DNA of 64,000 nucleotides from Clostridium ljungdahlii (GTDB lineage: Bacteria > Bacillota > Clostridia > Clostridiales > Clostridiaceae): contig NZ_LITT01000001.1 in the NCBI RefSeq assembly GCF_001636845.1, positions 1 through 64,000 on the forward strand, read 5' to 3'. Of the stretch, positions 16,706 through 61,805 are shown piece by piece. Position 1 is the first letter of the stretch, and each line of letters begins with the position of its first letter. Under the pieces are notes generated by a model. It did not search any database. It saw nothing but the letters and a program-made list of their open reading frames with translations, and was not told the DNA's origin. The translations under genes were made by a program, and so were the position numbers.

Positions 16706-16778
16706 AATGTATTGACTATAAATTTACTTTTAATGTATAATTGTAGCAGTGGTTTATAATTGTGTTGGAGGGGATATC

Positions 16779-17420
16779 TTGGATAATAGGAGTTATAATG
16801 CTAGGAAAGTTTCCCCCTTTGAAGAGAAATTAGATGAAGAAATAGTTATTGAAGCAAAAAAAGGGGATGTAAGTGCTCAAGAGTACCTGATAAATAAATA
16901 TGGAAATTTTGTTAAATCAAAATCAAAGTCATATTTTTTAATCGGTGCGGATAAGGAGGATATATACCAGGAAGGTATGATAGGTTTATATAAGGCTATA
17001 AGGGATTTTAAACCAGATAAGCTATCATCTTTTAAAGCTTTTGCAGAACTTTGCGTGACCCGTCAAATAATAACTGCTATAAAAACTGCTACTAGACAGA
17101 AGCATATTCCATTAAATACATATATATCTTTAAATAAGCCTATATATGATGAAGAATCAGATAGAACTTTATTGGATGTTTTATCTGAAACTAAGGTGGC
17201 AGATCCCGAAGAACTTGTAATTGGAAGGGAAGAGCTAAATCATATACAAAGTGAAATAGGAGAAGTGTTGTCAAATTTAGAAATGGAAGTACTTATGTCT
17301 TATGTAGATGGGAAGTCATATCAAGAAATTGCATGTGATTTAGATAGACATGCCAAGTCTATAGATAATGCTTTACAGAGAGTTAAAAGAAAACTGGAAA
17401 AATGTTTAATTCATAAATAA
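16779..17420 (+). CDS. sigH: RNA polymerase sporulation sigma factor SigH
   Basis: The protein is 213 residues long from TTG 16779, seven bases after GGAGGGG (16767-16773); earlier in-frame starts have no site. Region 2 is visible as QEYLINKYGNFVKSKSKSYFL and EDIYQEGMIGLYKAIRDF, and region 4 as YQEIACDLDRHAKSIDNALQRVKRKLE. SigH directs the transition to stationary phase and the start of sporulation. In Bacillus and clostridia it follows yacP and precedes the ribosomal/RNA polymerase gene clusters. Confidence 0.95.
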   Translation: MDNRSYNARKVSPFEEKLDEEIVIEAKKGDVSAQEYLINKYGNFVKSKSKSYFLIGADKEDIYQEGMIGLYKAIRDFKPDKLSSFKAFAELCVTRQIITAIKTATRQKHIPLNTYISLNKPIYDEESDRTLLDVLSETKVADPEELVIGREELNHIQSEIGEVLSNLEMEVLMSYVDGKSYQEIACDLDRHAKSIDNALQRVKRKLEKCLIHK

Positions 17421-17504: not shown

Positions 17505-17579
17505 GCGGGAGTAGTTCAGTGGTAGAACACCAGCTTCCCAAGTTGGCCGTCGCGGGTTCGAGTCCCGTTTCCCGCTCCA
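17505..17579 (+). tRNA. tRNA-Gly (anticodon CCC)
   Basis: A full cloverleaf is present: acceptor GCGGGAG with TTCCCGC, the D arm with GTTCAGTGGTAGAAC, anticodon stem CCAGC/GTTGG around loop TTCCCAA (anticodon CCC), and T arm GCGGGTTCGAGTCCCGT. The CCA end is encoded (17577-17579). Confidence 0.93.
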
Positions 17580-17588
17580 AGAGAAATT

Positions 17589-17664
17589 GCCCATGTAGCT
17601 CAGTAGGCAGAGCGTCACCTTGGTAAGGTGGAGGTCACCAGTTCAATCCTGGTCATGGGCTCCA
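17589..17664 (+). tRNA. tRNA-Thr (anticodon GGT)
   Basis: Acceptor GCCCATG pairs with CATGGGC, the anticodon stem TCACC/GGTGG encloses loop TTGGTAA (anticodon GGT), and the T arm is CCAGTTCAATCCTGG. CCA is encoded. It lies nine bases after tRNA-Gly and 82 bases before tuf. Confidence 0.95.
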
Positions 17665-17746
17665 ATAATGATGTATAAAGTTTTTACAACACACCAGGAT
17701 GAGTTTACTTAAATAAGATGTGTATAACCAACAAGGAGGAAGAGTA

Positions 17747-18940
17747 ATGTCAAAAGAAAAGTATGAAAGAACAAAACCACATGTAAACATAGGAACAATA
17801 GGACACGTAGATCACGGTAAGACAACATTAACAGCAGCAATAACAATGGTATTGTCAAAAGAGGGAAAAGCAGCAGCAACAAAATATGATGAAATAGATA
17901 AAGCACCAGAAGAAAAAGAAAGAGGAATAACAATAAATACAGCGCATGTAGAGTATGAGACAGATAAGAGACACTATGCTCACGTAGACTGTCCAGGACA
18001 TGCAGATTATGTAAAGAACATGATAACAGGAGCAGCACAGATGGATGGAGCAATCCTAGTAGTAAGTGCAGCAGATGGTCCAATGCCACAGACAAGAGAA
18101 CATATATTGTTAGCAAGCAGAGTAGGAGTACAGTATATAGTAGTATTCTTAAATAAGTCAGACCAGGTAGACGATCCAGAATTACTAGAATTAGTAGAGA
18201 TGGAAGTAAGAGAGTTATTAAGTGAGTATGGATTCCCAGGAGACGATGTTCCAATAATAGTAGGAAGTGCATTAAAGGTATTAGAGAACCCAGATGATCC
18301 AGAAACAACAAAATGCATACATGAATTAATGGATGCAGTAGATGAGTATATACCAACACCAGAAAGACCAACAGATAAAGACTTCTTAATGCCAATAGAA
18401 GATGTATTCACAATAACAGGAAGAGGAACAGTAGCAACAGGAAGAGTAGAAAGTGGAGTATTAAAAATCGGAGACGAATTAGAAATAGTAGGATTAAAAG
18501 AAGAAAAGAAGAAGACAACATGTACAGGAGTAGAGATGTTTAGAAAACTTCTAGACCAGGCAATGGCAGGAGATAACATCGGAGTACTATTAAGAGGAAT
18601 ACAGAGAGAAGAAGTAGAAAGAGGTCAAGTACTAGCAAAACCAGGAACAGTACATCCTCATAAGAAATTTGTAGGTCAGGTATATGTACTTAAGAAAGAA
18701 GAAGGCGGAAGACATACACCATTCTTCAATGGATACAGACCACAATTTTACTTCAGAACAACAGATGTAACAGGATCAATCGCACTAACAGAAGGAGTAG
18801 AAATGGTAATGCCAGGAGATCATATAGATATGAACGTAGAACTTATAACACCAGTAGCAATGCATGAAGGACTAAGATTTGCAATAAGAGAAGGCGGAAG
18901 AACAGTTGGTTCAGGTGTTGTTACTACAATAACTGAGTAA
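17747..18940 (+). CDS. tuf: Elongation factor Tu
   Basis: The protein is 397 residues long from ATG 17747, behind AAGGAGGAAG. G-domain motifs: GHVDHGKT (P loop), the [12 protein letters not shown] block, and NKSDQVDD for guanine recognition (NKxD). Domains II and III follow with the usual [13 protein letters not shown] and [12 protein letters not shown]-Tu brings aminoacyl-tRNA to the ribosome. Codon use is extreme, almost all A-ending (GTA, ACA, CCA, GGA) up to about base 18905, then T-ending codons for the last 12. The single gene here directly links sigH-tRNA to rpsJ, which is an unusual junction (see findings). Confidence 0.98.
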
Positions 18941-18989
18941 TTAAACTAGAAATATATTACTTGTAAAACTTACTAAATATATTGTATTA

Positions 18990-19019
18990 AAAAAGGAAAG
19001 AGTGCACTCTTTCCTTTTT
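18990..19019 (+). terminator. Terminator after tuf
   Basis: AAAAAGGAAAGAG and CTCTTTCCTTTTT form a perfect 13-bp stem around TGCA, ending in a T-run. It separates tuf from the S10 operon promoter. Confidence 0.93.
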
Positions 19020-19044
19020 AATAAGTAGAAATATAAATTTTTAC

Positions 19045-19073
19045 TTGTCATGTATATAAATTTATTGTATAAT
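19045..19073 (+). promoter_or_regulatory. Promoter of the S10 operon
   Basis: TTGTCA (19045-19050) and TATAAT (19068-19073) lie 17 bases apart, giving a transcript start near 19080 and a leader of about 210 bases before rpsJ. Confidence 0.85.
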
Positions 19074-19079
19074 TAAGAA

Positions 19080-19280
19080 GTTGTGATGTTATAACAGCGA
19101 TGAGGCAAGAGGTTGCCGGGCTTCCGGGTAATTCTTGGCTGAGTATGCTTAAGTCTTGAACTTAGGCGACGGTGATTTTGTAAAGGCAGTGCTTTCATAA
19201 AATAAAAGAAACGCCTGGAACAGTTTACAGAATATATCCGCTGTTGTACGTAAGAAGCATAGCGTGCATGAAAAGGAGGG
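19080..19280 (+). promoter_or_regulatory. Structured 5' leader of the S10 operon (candidate L4-responsive leader)
   Basis: The leader has no gene and is closed by a long-range stem, AACAGCG (19093-19099) with CGCTGTT (19239-19245). Inside are local hairpins, CCGG-GCTT-CCGG near 19117-19128 and TTAAGT/ACTTAG-type pairing near 19150-19165. Autogenous control of the S10 operon by ribosomal protein L4 through the leader is known in Bacillus and enteric bacteria. That this leader binds L4 is an inference from position and structure; rplD is the third gene of the operon. Confidence 0.5.
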
Positions 19281-19288
19281 AAATAACA

Positions 19289-19597
19289 ATGGCAAAACAA
19301 AAAATTAGAATAAGATTAAAGGCTTTTGATCATACAATATTAGATCAATCATCTGAAAAGATAGTAGAAACTGCTAAGTCCACAGGGGCAAAAGTAGCAG
19401 GACCAGTACCACTGCCTACAGAAAAAGATGTGGTTACAATTTTGAGAGCCCCACATAAATATAAAGATTCAAGAGAACAATTTGAAATAAGAACTCATAA
19501 AAGATTGATAGATATAATAAGCCCATCACCAAAAACTGTTGATGCGTTAATGAGACTTGACTTACCAGCAGGCGTTGATATTGAAATAAAATTGTAG
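19289..19597 (+). CDS. rpsJ: 30S ribosomal protein S10
   Basis: The protein is 102 residues long from ATG 19289 ([15 protein letters not shown]), behind AAAAGGAGGG. The S10 signature VAGPVPLPT and a [12 protein letters not shown] block are present. S10 (NusE) sits in the small-subunit head and also acts in antitermination. It is the first gene of the S10 operon, after a long structured leader. Confidence 0.98.
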
Positions 19598-19666: not shown

Positions 19667-20296
19667 ATGAAAAAAGCTATATTAGGTAGAAAGCTTGGTA
19701 TGACTCAAATATTTAATGAAAATGGAAAGGTAATTCCTGTTACAGTAATTGAAGCAGGACCTTGTGCTGTTATACAGAAGAAAACTGTAGAAAAAGATGG
19801 GTATGAGGCTGTACAGGTTGGTTTTAGCGATATAAGAGAAAAGTTGGTAAACAAACCAATGAAGGGACATTTTGAAAAAGCAGGAGTTACATTAAAGAGA
19901 TTTATAAAGGAATTCAAACTTGAAAATGTTAGTGAATACAAGGAAGGCCAGGAAATAAAGGCAGATGTTTTCGCAGCAGGAGATAAAGTTGATGTGTCTG
20001 GAGTTTCTAAAGGTAAGGGGTTCCAGGGTACAATAAAAAGATGGAATGCTCAAAGAGGACCAATGTCCCATGGTTCTAAATTCCACAGAGCACCAGGTTC
20101 AATGGGAGCTTGCTCAGATCCATCCAGAACATTCAAGAATATGAAAATGGCAGGACATATGGGAAATAGAAACACAACAGTGTTAAATTTGGAAGTTGCA
20201 AAAGTTATTCCTGAGAAAAACATTATTTTAATAAAAGGTGGAGTACCAGGACCTAACAAAGGACTTGTAGCAATAAGAAATACAGTTAAGGCTTAG
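19667..20296 (+). CDS. rplC: 50S ribosomal protein L3
   Basis: The protein is 209 residues long, starting [16 protein letters not shown] behind TTTAGGAGGTGTATG. The [12 protein letters not shown] and [15 protein letters not shown] blocks are the L3 core that reaches the peptidyl-transferase centre. It is an early-assembly protein. It is the second gene of the S10 operon, 69 bases after rpsJ. Confidence 0.98.
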
Positions 20297-54230: not shown

Positions 54231-55664
54231 AATTTATAGTACATATATTTAAAAATTTTTAAATATGAGGTATAATTATGTATAAAAATAAATGTTTAAA
54301 TCAAGATTAACATAGATTTATATACAACTTTGTATAAATACACAATTTTAGGAGGAAAATAAATGAAAAAAGGTATATCGGCTTCTAAAGGTTATGCAAT
54401 AGGAAAGGTAGTTGTAAAAAGGAAAACTAAAATAAATATAGAGAAAAGGCATATAGATGATGTGATACAAGAAAAGGAAAGATTTCAAAAAGCCCTTGAA
54501 TTATCAAAAAGTCAATTGGAAAAAATTAAAGCAAAGGCTGAAAAAGAGGTAGGCAAAGATAAGGCGGAAGTATTTGAAAGTCATATCATGCTTTTAGATG
54601 ATGTAGAATTTGCAGGTGCAGTAACAGTAAAGATAGAAAATGATCATGTGAATGCAGAGAGTGCACTTTATGATATAGTAGATTTATATATGAAAACCTT
54701 TCAGGCTATGGAAGACGAGTATATGAGAGAACGTGGAGCAGATATAAAAGATGTAGGTAGTAGAATACTTGCAAACCTTACAGGTAACAACTCTTCCATA
54801 ATTGACATGGAAAATAATACGGTAGTTGTAGCTCATGACTTAACTCCTTCAGATACAGCACAGCTGGATAAGAGTAAAGTAATAGCCTTTGTTACAGACA
54901 TTGGAGGAAGAACTTCTCACAGTGCAATTATGGCTAGAACCCTTGAAATACCAGCAGTAGTTGGCTTAAACGATATAACAGATTTAGTCAAAGATGGAGA
55001 TATTATTATAGTAGATGGAGTAGAGGGTGAAGTTATAATAAACCCAGATAAAGATACTTTAGATACTTATAAGATAAAAAAAGAAAATTATAAAAAAGAA
55101 AAAGAAAAACTTAAAGCTTTAATAGATGTAGAAGTATTCACAAAATATGGAAAGAAAGTAGAGGTTTTTGGAAACATAGGTAAGCCAGAGGATGTAGATC
55201 AGGTGCTAAAAAATGGCGGCGAGGGCATAGGACTTTTTAGAACCGAATTTTTATATATGGATAGGGACAGTATGCCTGGAGAAGAGGAGCAATTTAATGC
55301 TTATAAAACTGTAGTGGAGAAAATGGGTAAAAGACCTGTAATTATAAGAACATTAGATATAGGAGGAGATAAAAAGCTTTCCTATTTACCTGTACCAGAG
55401 GAAATGAATCCTTTCTTAGGGTATAGGGCCATAAGGCTTTGTCTGGACAGAACGGATATATTTAAAGTCCAGCTAAGAGCTCTTTTGAGAGCATCTGTTT
55501 TTGGAAATTTAAGAATAATGTTTCCAATGATAAGTTCTTTGGAAGAAGTTCTAAAGGCCAAGGAAATATTAAAAGAGTGTATGGATGAACTTACTAAAGA
55601 GGGAAAGAGTTTTAATAAGGATTTACAAACAGGAATAATGGTAGAAATACCTGCAGCGGCAGTA
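54231..55664 (+). repeat. 1,434-bp tandem duplication, copy 1
   Basis: This unit holds the ptsI promoter region, leader and first 434 codons. It is followed directly by copy 2 (55665-57098). The offset is constant at 1,434 bp (ATG 54363 and 55797) and I saw no mismatch between the copies. The join uses the four-base microhomology AATT, shared by the end of the unit (AGTAAATTCAG in the intact gene) and its start (GTTAATTTATAG). Confidence 0.93.
54245..54276 (+). promoter_or_regulatory. ptsI promoter region, copy 1: 22-bp palindrome and TATAAT
   Basis: A perfect 22-bp AT palindrome (54245-54266, ATATTTAAAA... with its complement) sits five bases upstream of TATAAT (54271-54276). The palindrome would cover the -35 region and may be an operator. 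The identical arrangement recurs at 55679-55710 before the intact gene. Confidence 0.55.
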
Positions 55665-55673
55665 AATTTATAG
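54363..55673 (+). pseudogene. ptsI: Truncated copy of ptsI (enzyme I), lacking the C-terminal end
   Basis: The frame codes for 436 residues, identical to the intact copy through the codon at the duplication join, then one foreign residue and TAG. It keeps the HPr-binding helical domain and the phosphohistidine segment (GGRTSHSAIMA, His186), and most of the barrel. It has lost the last 101 residues with the catalytic Cys (KICGMCGEMAG) and part of the PEP site. It has its own promoter and ribosome site, so the fragment is probably expressed and may be inactive or interfere with dimerisation. Confidence 0.9.
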
Positions 55674-57098
55674 TACATATATTTAAAAATTTTTAAATAT
55701 GAGGTATAATTATGTATAAAAATAAATGTTTAAATCAAGATTAACATAGATTTATATACAACTTTGTATAAATACACAATTTTAGGAGGAAAATAAATGA
55801 AAAAAGGTATATCGGCTTCTAAAGGTTATGCAATAGGAAAGGTAGTTGTAAAAAGGAAAACTAAAATAAATATAGAGAAAAGGCATATAGATGATGTGAT
55901 ACAAGAAAAGGAAAGATTTCAAAAAGCCCTTGAATTATCAAAAAGTCAATTGGAAAAAATTAAAGCAAAGGCTGAAAAAGAGGTAGGCAAAGATAAGGCG
56001 GAAGTATTTGAAAGTCATATCATGCTTTTAGATGATGTAGAATTTGCAGGTGCAGTAACAGTAAAGATAGAAAATGATCATGTGAATGCAGAGAGTGCAC
56101 TTTATGATATAGTAGATTTATATATGAAAACCTTTCAGGCTATGGAAGACGAGTATATGAGAGAACGTGGAGCAGATATAAAAGATGTAGGTAGTAGAAT
56201 ACTTGCAAACCTTACAGGTAACAACTCTTCCATAATTGACATGGAAAATAATACGGTAGTTGTAGCTCATGACTTAACTCCTTCAGATACAGCACAGCTG
56301 GATAAGAGTAAAGTAATAGCCTTTGTTACAGACATTGGAGGAAGAACTTCTCACAGTGCAATTATGGCTAGAACCCTTGAAATACCAGCAGTAGTTGGCT
56401 TAAACGATATAACAGATTTAGTCAAAGATGGAGATATTATTATAGTAGATGGAGTAGAGGGTGAAGTTATAATAAACCCAGATAAAGATACTTTAGATAC
56501 TTATAAGATAAAAAAAGAAAATTATAAAAAAGAAAAAGAAAAACTTAAAGCTTTAATAGATGTAGAAGTATTCACAAAATATGGAAAGAAAGTAGAGGTT
56601 TTTGGAAACATAGGTAAGCCAGAGGATGTAGATCAGGTGCTAAAAAATGGCGGCGAGGGCATAGGACTTTTTAGAACCGAATTTTTATATATGGATAGGG
56701 ACAGTATGCCTGGAGAAGAGGAGCAATTTAATGCTTATAAAACTGTAGTGGAGAAAATGGGTAAAAGACCTGTAATTATAAGAACATTAGATATAGGAGG
56801 AGATAAAAAGCTTTCCTATTTACCTGTACCAGAGGAAATGAATCCTTTCTTAGGGTATAGGGCCATAAGGCTTTGTCTGGACAGAACGGATATATTTAAA
56901 GTCCAGCTAAGAGCTCTTTTGAGAGCATCTGTTTTTGGAAATTTAAGAATAATGTTTCCAATGATAAGTTCTTTGGAAGAAGTTCTAAAGGCCAAGGAAA
57001 TATTAAAAGAGTGTATGGATGAACTTACTAAAGAGGGAAAGAGTTTTAATAAGGATTTACAAACAGGAATAATGGTAGAAATACCTGCAGCGGCAGTA
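55665..57098 (+). repeat. 1,434-bp tandem duplication, copy 2
   Basis: This is the second unit, running on into the unique 3' end of the intact ptsI. It carries its own copy of the promoter palindrome and TATAAT, so the full-length gene kept a complete control region after the duplication. Confidence 0.93.
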
Positions 57099-57410
57099 AA
57101 TTCAGATGAACTTGCAAAGTATGTGGACTTTTTCAGTATTGGAACTAATGATTTAATACAATATACTTTAGCGGCAGATAGGATGAATGAAAAAGTAGCT
57201 TATCTCTACAATCCAATGCATCCAGCAGTTTTGAAACTTATAAAGATGACCATAGAGGCTGCACATAAACAGGGAAAAATATGTGGAATGTGTGGAGAAA
57301 TGGCTGGAGATGAAAATGCCGTTGAAACTTTAGTAGAATACGGATTAGATGAATTCTCCATGAGTGCTTCCTCTATATTAAAGGCAAAAGAACTTATAAT
57401 GAAAAAGTAA
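55797..57410 (+). CDS. ptsI: Phosphoenolpyruvate-protein phosphotransferase (PTS enzyme I)
   Basis: The protein is 537 residues long from ATG 55797, behind TTTTAGGAGG. Domains in order: N-terminal HPr-binding and swivel domain with phosphohistidine 186 (GGRTSHSAIMA), a linker, and the PEP-binding barrel with RTEFLYMDR, FGNLRIMFPMIS, NDLIQYTLAADR and the catalytic Cys in GMCGEMAGDE. It passes phosphate from PEP to HPr for sugar uptake. HPr is not encoded next to it. It is slightly shorter than the 570 residues common elsewhere. A terminator follows. Confidence 0.96.
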   Translation: MKKGISASKGYAIGKVVVKRKTKINIEKRHIDDVIQEKERFQKALELSKSQLEKIKAKAEKEVGKDKAEVFESHIMLLDDVEFAGAVTVKIENDHVNAESALYDIVDLYMKTFQAMEDEYMRERGADIKDVGSRILANLTGNNSSIIDMENNTVVVAHDLTPSDTAQLDKSKVIAFVTDIGGRTSHSAIMARTLEIPAVVGLNDITDLVKDGDIIIVDGVEGEVIINPDKDTLDTYKIKKENYKKEKEKLKALIDVEVFTKYGKKVEVFGNIGKPEDVDQVLKNGGEGIGLFRTEFLYMDRDSMPGEEEQFNAYKTVVEKMGKRPVIIRTLDIGGDKKLSYLPVPEEMNPFLGYRAIRLCLDRTDIFKVQLRALLRASVFGNLRIMFPMISSLEEVLKAKEILKECMDELTKEGKSFNKDLQTGIMVEIPAAAVNSDELAKYVDFFSIGTNDLIQYTLAADRMNEKVAYLYNPMHPAVLKLIKMTIEAAHKQGKICGMCGEMAGDENAVETLVEYGLDEFSMSASSILKAKELIMKK

Positions 57411-61540: not shown

Positions 61541-61544
61541 TCTA

Positions 61545-61665
61545 ATCCTCTCCTTATTACCGACGGGGTTAGCTGACGGGTTCGGTAAAGGCATAACCTA
61601 CGTAAATACGATTCACCCCAATGTTACTGGTTTCCCCGTGTTTTTAGTAAAACTTAGGCTAATGA
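61545..61665 (-). promoter_or_regulatory. c-di-AMP riboswitch (ydaO/yuaA type)
   Basis: Read on the minus strand, this region has the ydaO hallmarks in order: ACACGGGGAAACCA, then TTGGGGTGAATCG, then a TTACCGAACCCGTCAGCTAA stretch, CCCCGTCGGTAA, and the ribosome site AAGGAG. The CCGAACCCG and GGGGTGAATC blocks are the conserved c-di-AMP contacts. ydaO riboswitches turn gene expression off when c-di-AMP is high; the target is the hydrolase gene whose start is within ten bases of the aptamer end. The ligand's cyclases, DisA and CdaA, are both encoded in this window. Confidence 0.9.
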
Positions 61666-61805
61666 TATTGTACCCATATAAAAAAATAAAATACGATAAA
61701 AATGTATTTTATTAAAATTTTATAAAATAATTTATTACGTGATATAAACAATATCAAATAGTGTATAATTTAAATATATATTTTATTGACAGGGTGGTGA
61801 GATGG

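Follow-up and report, generated by a model that had tools for sequence, protein, structure and literature searches.

Assembly collapse of duplicate tuf genes as the very probable cause of an apparent loss of the rpoBC-fusA block between sigH and rpsJ in a Clostridium ljungdahlii draft genome

Introduction

Duplicate tuf genes are described as undergoing gene conversion in the parts of PMC8046335 that deal with this gene cluster, where the tuf duplication is thought to predate the Firmicutes and where cysS-rnc-rlmB-orf1-sigH are given as the genes preceding the cluster in Bacilli. Recurrent concerted evolution of tuf is reported in PMC6053082 as well, and the phyla listed in the relevant portion of that paper do not name the Firmicutes. 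In the genus considered here, the relatives G001 to G011 carry a sigH-tuf-secE-rpoBC-str-tuf-S10 cluster. For duplicate tuf genes, concerted evolution through gene conversion was reportedly described by Lathe and Bork in 2001 and by Abdulkarim and Hughes in 1996, as cited in PMC8046335 and PMC6053082. Such evolution likewise leaves near-identical tuf copies within each genome, which is the very condition for an assembly collapse, and the near-identity of the copies is known biology, nothing new.

The stretch of DNA analyzed here, referred to as the window, comprises 64,000 nucleotides of Clostridium ljungdahlii (positions 1 to 64,000 of contig NZ_LITT01000001.1, assembly GCF_001636845.1). Upstream of the cluster, the window has the same genes, cysS-rnc-rlmB-orf1-sigH, as the Bacilli in the portion of PMC8046335 concerned. 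Taken together, the window and a second contig of the same assembly (C32) hold the same genes as the cluster of G001 to G011, in the same order and orientation; in this assembly, however, unlike in these relatives, the rpoBC-fusA block lies on that second contig, and a single full tuf remains.

Results

The window carries sigH, encoding RNA polymerase sigma-H (16749-17420), tRNA-Gly(ccc) (17505-17579), tRNA-Thr(ggt) (17589-17664), a single tuf encoding an EF-Tu of 397 amino acids (17747-18940), and rpsJ, the first gene of the S10 operon (19289-19597), all on the plus strand, with rplC following at 19667-20296. Both tRNA genes were called by ARAGORN and by Rfam, and protein genes were named by recognition of their translations, except where a family search is given. 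No open reading frame (ORF) of the rpoBC/fusA block was found between sigH and rpsJ in the window. The ORFs and the ARAGORN calls therefore bear out the order sigH, tRNA-Gly, tRNA-Thr, single tuf, and rpsJ that had been read from the letters alone in the original prediction. In the relatives, sigH is the left flank of tuf1 and rpsJ is the right flank of tuf2, and the DNA from sigH to tuf1 shows 98% identity to that of G006. Comparison with C32 and with the relatives revealed that the single tuf in the window joins the outer edges of two copies, the left edge of tuf1 and the right edge of tuf2, just as had been proposed. A terminator after tuf had been predicted too; a palindrome with a T-run is indeed present at about 18990-19020, but a terminator scan called none.

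Ahead of rpsJ lies a leader of about 210 bases (approximately 19075-19288 of the window), which is strongly conserved in 12 same-genus relatives and much less conserved in G033, a genome of the family survey described below. No Rfam family matched this leader at the gathering score, and it is perhaps a structured S10-operon leader. Elsewhere in the window, a c-di-AMP riboswitch (RF00379) was found by Rfam at 61543-61670 on the minus strand, with a score of 89.7 bits.

The window's own assembly (G000) consists of 65 contigs and 4,363,917 bases. Using tuf DNA as the query against this assembly, we found that, besides the window, both ends of contig C32 (15,937 bp) were matched with 100% identity. 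On its minus strand, C32 reads as the last 152 bases of tuf, rpmG, secE, nusG, rplK, and rplA, then the L10 leader (RF00557), rplJ, rplL, rpoB, and rpoC (the last also supported by PF04997), and finally an L7Ae-like gene, rpsL, rpsG, fusA, and the first 1,041 bases of tuf. ARAGORN called no tRNA gene on C32, none of the 13 genes recognized on it is a replication gene, and no end overlap was present between its first and last bases. All other tuf-like protein matches in the assembly (E values up to 1e-12) were at most 36% identical, a level to be expected for other translational GTPases. Thus, the missing segment is found in the same assembly with the repeat, tuf, on both of its sides, as a collapse would leave it. 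The rpoBC/fusA block had been expected from the start to lie elsewhere in the genome, with the question whether it would be flanked by tuf, and the complete list of its genes is on C32, bounded by tuf at either end. Moreover, the observation named in advance as speaking against a true rearrangement was a second contig ending in tuf and bearing rpmG and fusA, and C32 is such a contig.

At the 3′ end of tuf, C32 is identical to the window over 153 bases (18789-18941), after which C32 continues into rpmG and the window towards rpsJ. At the 5′ end of tuf, the identity extends over 1054 bases (17734-18787); upstream of 17734, C32 has the fusA side and the window the tRNA-Thr side. The putatively collapsed repeat therefore spans 17734-18941 on the plus strand, that is, 1,208 bases, including the tuf ribosome-binding site, which are common to the window and the C32 ends except at 18788; this near-identical repeat is longer than a short read, as expected for a collapse. 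The ends of C32 complement each other and together make up one tuf, from which the single base 18788 is missing.

On the plus strand of the window, base 18788 is an A, yielding Thr348, whereas a C, yielding Pro348, occupies this position in all 22 tuf copies of 11 same-genus relatives. Pro was likewise found at site 348 in 16 of the 16 tblastn matches that cover the site (E ≤1e-20) among the 80 named loci described below. Of 817 tuf positions that are invariant in the 22 relative copies, the window departs at two, positions 237 and 1042 (the latter being 18788), and while the departure at 237 is silent, that at 1042 changes the protein. Since the C32 cut falls on one of these two departing bases, the data suggest that 18788 is the point where the assembly was joined; the other possibility is that tuf1 and tuf2 truly differ at this base.

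A 2.85-kb sigH-tuf-rpsJ query was then compared with 13 genomes of the genus, including the window's own, and the region was taken as one stretch from 11 of the 12 relatives and as two stretches from G012. In these 11 relatives, which include the single-contig genomes G006, G010, and G011, the left part of the window, the C32 block, and the right part of the window follow one another on one contig, with tuf at both joints; the segment that the join skips is thereby present between the repeats, in order. The twelfth relative, G012, is broken at tuf, with sigH and rpsJ on two contigs and with query matches that end before tuf and begin after it. C32 aligned with G006 in one piece (15,933 bases, 97.9%) and with some other relatives in two or three pieces. 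The relatives carry tuf as two direct repeats some 16 kb apart, and tuf1 equals tuf2 exactly in 8 of the 11 genomes, the differences amounting to 3 bases in G006, 2 bases in G001, and 1 base in G002.

For the family survey, 116 genomes, including the window's own, were searched with limits of E ≤1e-25 for RpsJ and E ≤1e-50 for SigH. The two genes lay on one contig in 64 genomes and on different contigs in 41, and one or both were lacking at these limits in the other 11. When on the same contig, sigH and rpsJ were 17.1 to 22.9 kb apart in 59 of the 64 genomes and fused, at a distance of 2.4 to 2.5 kb, in four (G000, G033, G064, and G034), with the remaining genome, G112, showing a distance of 1.07 Mb. 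The fusion occurred in 4 of 29 genomes with more than 10 contigs versus 0 of 35 with 10 or fewer (contig numbers being rounded; Fisher P = 0.037), a small contrast between drafts and near-complete genomes. A true deletion should be seen in a near-complete genome, and the 35 genomes with 10 or fewer contigs gave no such case, 34 being normal and 1 showing another arrangement.

Contig C5 of G112 bears rpoC at 7.9-8.8 kb and a 3′ piece of tuf at 16.4 kb, and a full tuf is on contig C4. With these positions, a real rearrangement is an unlikely reading, and G112 probably represents one more assembly break connected with tuf.

A second collection, consisting of 80 named loci (the best 80 of 588 by SigH), was tallied by eye. 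Among these best 80 of 588 loci, the fusion was seen in one, L026 (Clostridium tepidiprofundi DSM 19306), and in 13 a complete or almost complete tuf preceded rpmG; in the other 66, the sequence broke off upstream of tuf, within it, or shortly after it, or no full tuf was found next to sigH. In its contig numbers and positions, G013, the genome of L026, matches G033, and the two are for this reason counted as what is probably one case, not two.

As in the window, a single tuf lies between sigH and rpsJ in C. tepidiprofundi DSM 19306 (G013, apparently G033), in G064, and in G034. In G064, the block occupies contig C15 (19,738 bp), which has a piece of tuf at either end; the first and last 126 bases of this contig are identical, forming an exact end overlap inside tuf. 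Linear write-out of a closed de Bruijn graph loop gives such an end overlap. Compared with the tuf on contig C43, the two pieces of this gene on C15 show identities of 98.9% and 99.3%, and since these values fall short of 100%, the tuf copies of G064 are, as judged by the identities, not fully merged. In comparison with C15, C32 is without an end overlap and one base short, which is not the plain signature of a loop, and its write-out therefore differs in detail from that of G064. In G013 (apparently G033), the block occupies contig C48 (15,028 bp), starting with 119 tuf bases and ending beyond rpmG in a short tandem repeat without tuf; this contig has tuf at one end only, whereas C32 has it at both. 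No match to rpoC was found in G034 (80% complete), and this genome hence shows only the fusion and not the displaced block.

The last dozen codons of tuf in the window (18902-18937) favor T at the third base, and the rest of the gene has mostly A. Considering the last 13 sense codons as the tail, T is the third base in 7 of 10 four-fold codons, versus 10 of 160 in the body of the gene. The abrupt change of codon style noted in the original prediction is thus real, but its interpretation as the mark of a chimera did not hold up: in 9 of the 11 relatives, including the two nearest ones, T accounts for the majority of the four-fold third bases of the tail in both tuf copies, the exceptions being G010, with T at 4 of 9, and G005, with a C-rich tail. 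Since both native copies have this tail style, it is no mark of a join and is, as far as these copies tell, a trait of the gene in most members of the genus examined.

A perfect tandem duplication is present at 54231-57098, as had been claimed, with a unit of 1,434 bp. It covers the first four fifths of a gene which we take to be ptsI-like (enzyme I of the phosphotransferase system), and a truncated ORF of 436 amino acids (54363-55673) precedes the full ORF of 537 amino acids (55797-57410). The segment is single copy in the two nearest relatives, G006 and G008, both of which were looked at, and the duplication could be real or could be an assembly duplication. That this repeat was resolved had been taken to argue against a collapse at tuf. 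The argument fails, as the fusion recurs in three further drafts of the family, and keeping a tandem repeat would not protect a dispersed 1.2-kb repeat, with copies 16 kb apart, from being collapsed; the tandem repeat shows only that the assembler kept, or made, a tandem copy.

Discussion

The arrangement in the window almost certainly reflects an assembly collapse of two tuf genes. This is supported by the content of C32, its tuf ends and their complementarity, the gene order in the relatives, and the fusions in other drafts. In the chromosome, the order on the left would be sigH, tRNA-Gly, tRNA-Thr, tuf1, and rpmG-secE-nusG-rplKA-rplJL-rpoBC, continuing on the right with L7Ae-rpsL-rpsG-fusA, tuf2, and rpsJ onward. 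The near-identical tuf copies, with their 1,208-bp stretch including the ribosome-binding site, would have been taken as one by the assembler, whose path would lead from sigH into tuf and from there straight to rpsJ, and the block between the copies would have been left as a loop and written out as C32, cut inside tuf at 18788. We infer that the merging took place in the assembler. The gene order of the window is no chance pattern and very probably stems from the assembly rather than from the chromosome; likewise, the loss of rpoBC/fusA is very probably not a real feature of the chromosome, which would be an ordinary one. Of the two origins considered in the original prediction, recombination or assembly collapse, C32 and the relatives favor the latter, and a true recombination is rated low.

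The geometry needed for a true excision does exist, since the relatives have direct tuf repeats about 16 kb apart, and the ends of C32 would close into a one-tuf circle but for one base. In such an event, recombination between the tuf copies would release the block, which would persist as a 16-kb circle in the strain or in a subpopulation, and the assembly would then show a genuine structural variant. Yet the block holds rpoB, rpoC, fusA, nusG, and rpsL, and no replication gene is found among its 13 recognized genes; one would therefore expect such a circle to disappear and the cell not to survive. Nor does the fusion occur in any of the 35 same-contig genomes with 10 or fewer contigs, and we consider an excision exceedingly improbable. 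Hardly any credence can be given to a true translocation either, in which the block would reside at another chromosomal site, leaving a single tuf between sigH and rpsJ. All that speaks for it is the location of the block and the window on different contigs, whereas a moved block would have unique flanks and C32 has none, ending in tuf on both sides, and the other tuf-like matches of the assembly do not exceed 36% identity.

Tandem amplification of the block in culture would add a fusA-tuf-rpmG junction and favor a circular contig, and this junction is the same as that of C32 closed on itself. Amplification would, however, leave unaccounted for how sigH-tuf runs into rpsJ without the block, and nothing in the data calls for more than a plain collapse; we consider this explanation very unlikely.

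A collapse of the two tuf genes is of no consequence as biology and of slight value as a caution. In the merged tuf, Thr348, the residue at the likely join, is suspect. Completeness scores give no warning of a tuf collapse, the present genome being rated at 99.99%. Where tuf pairs are near-identical, drafts of this family can seem to have lost or moved rpoBC-fusA, an appearance seen in 4 of the 64 same-contig genomes.
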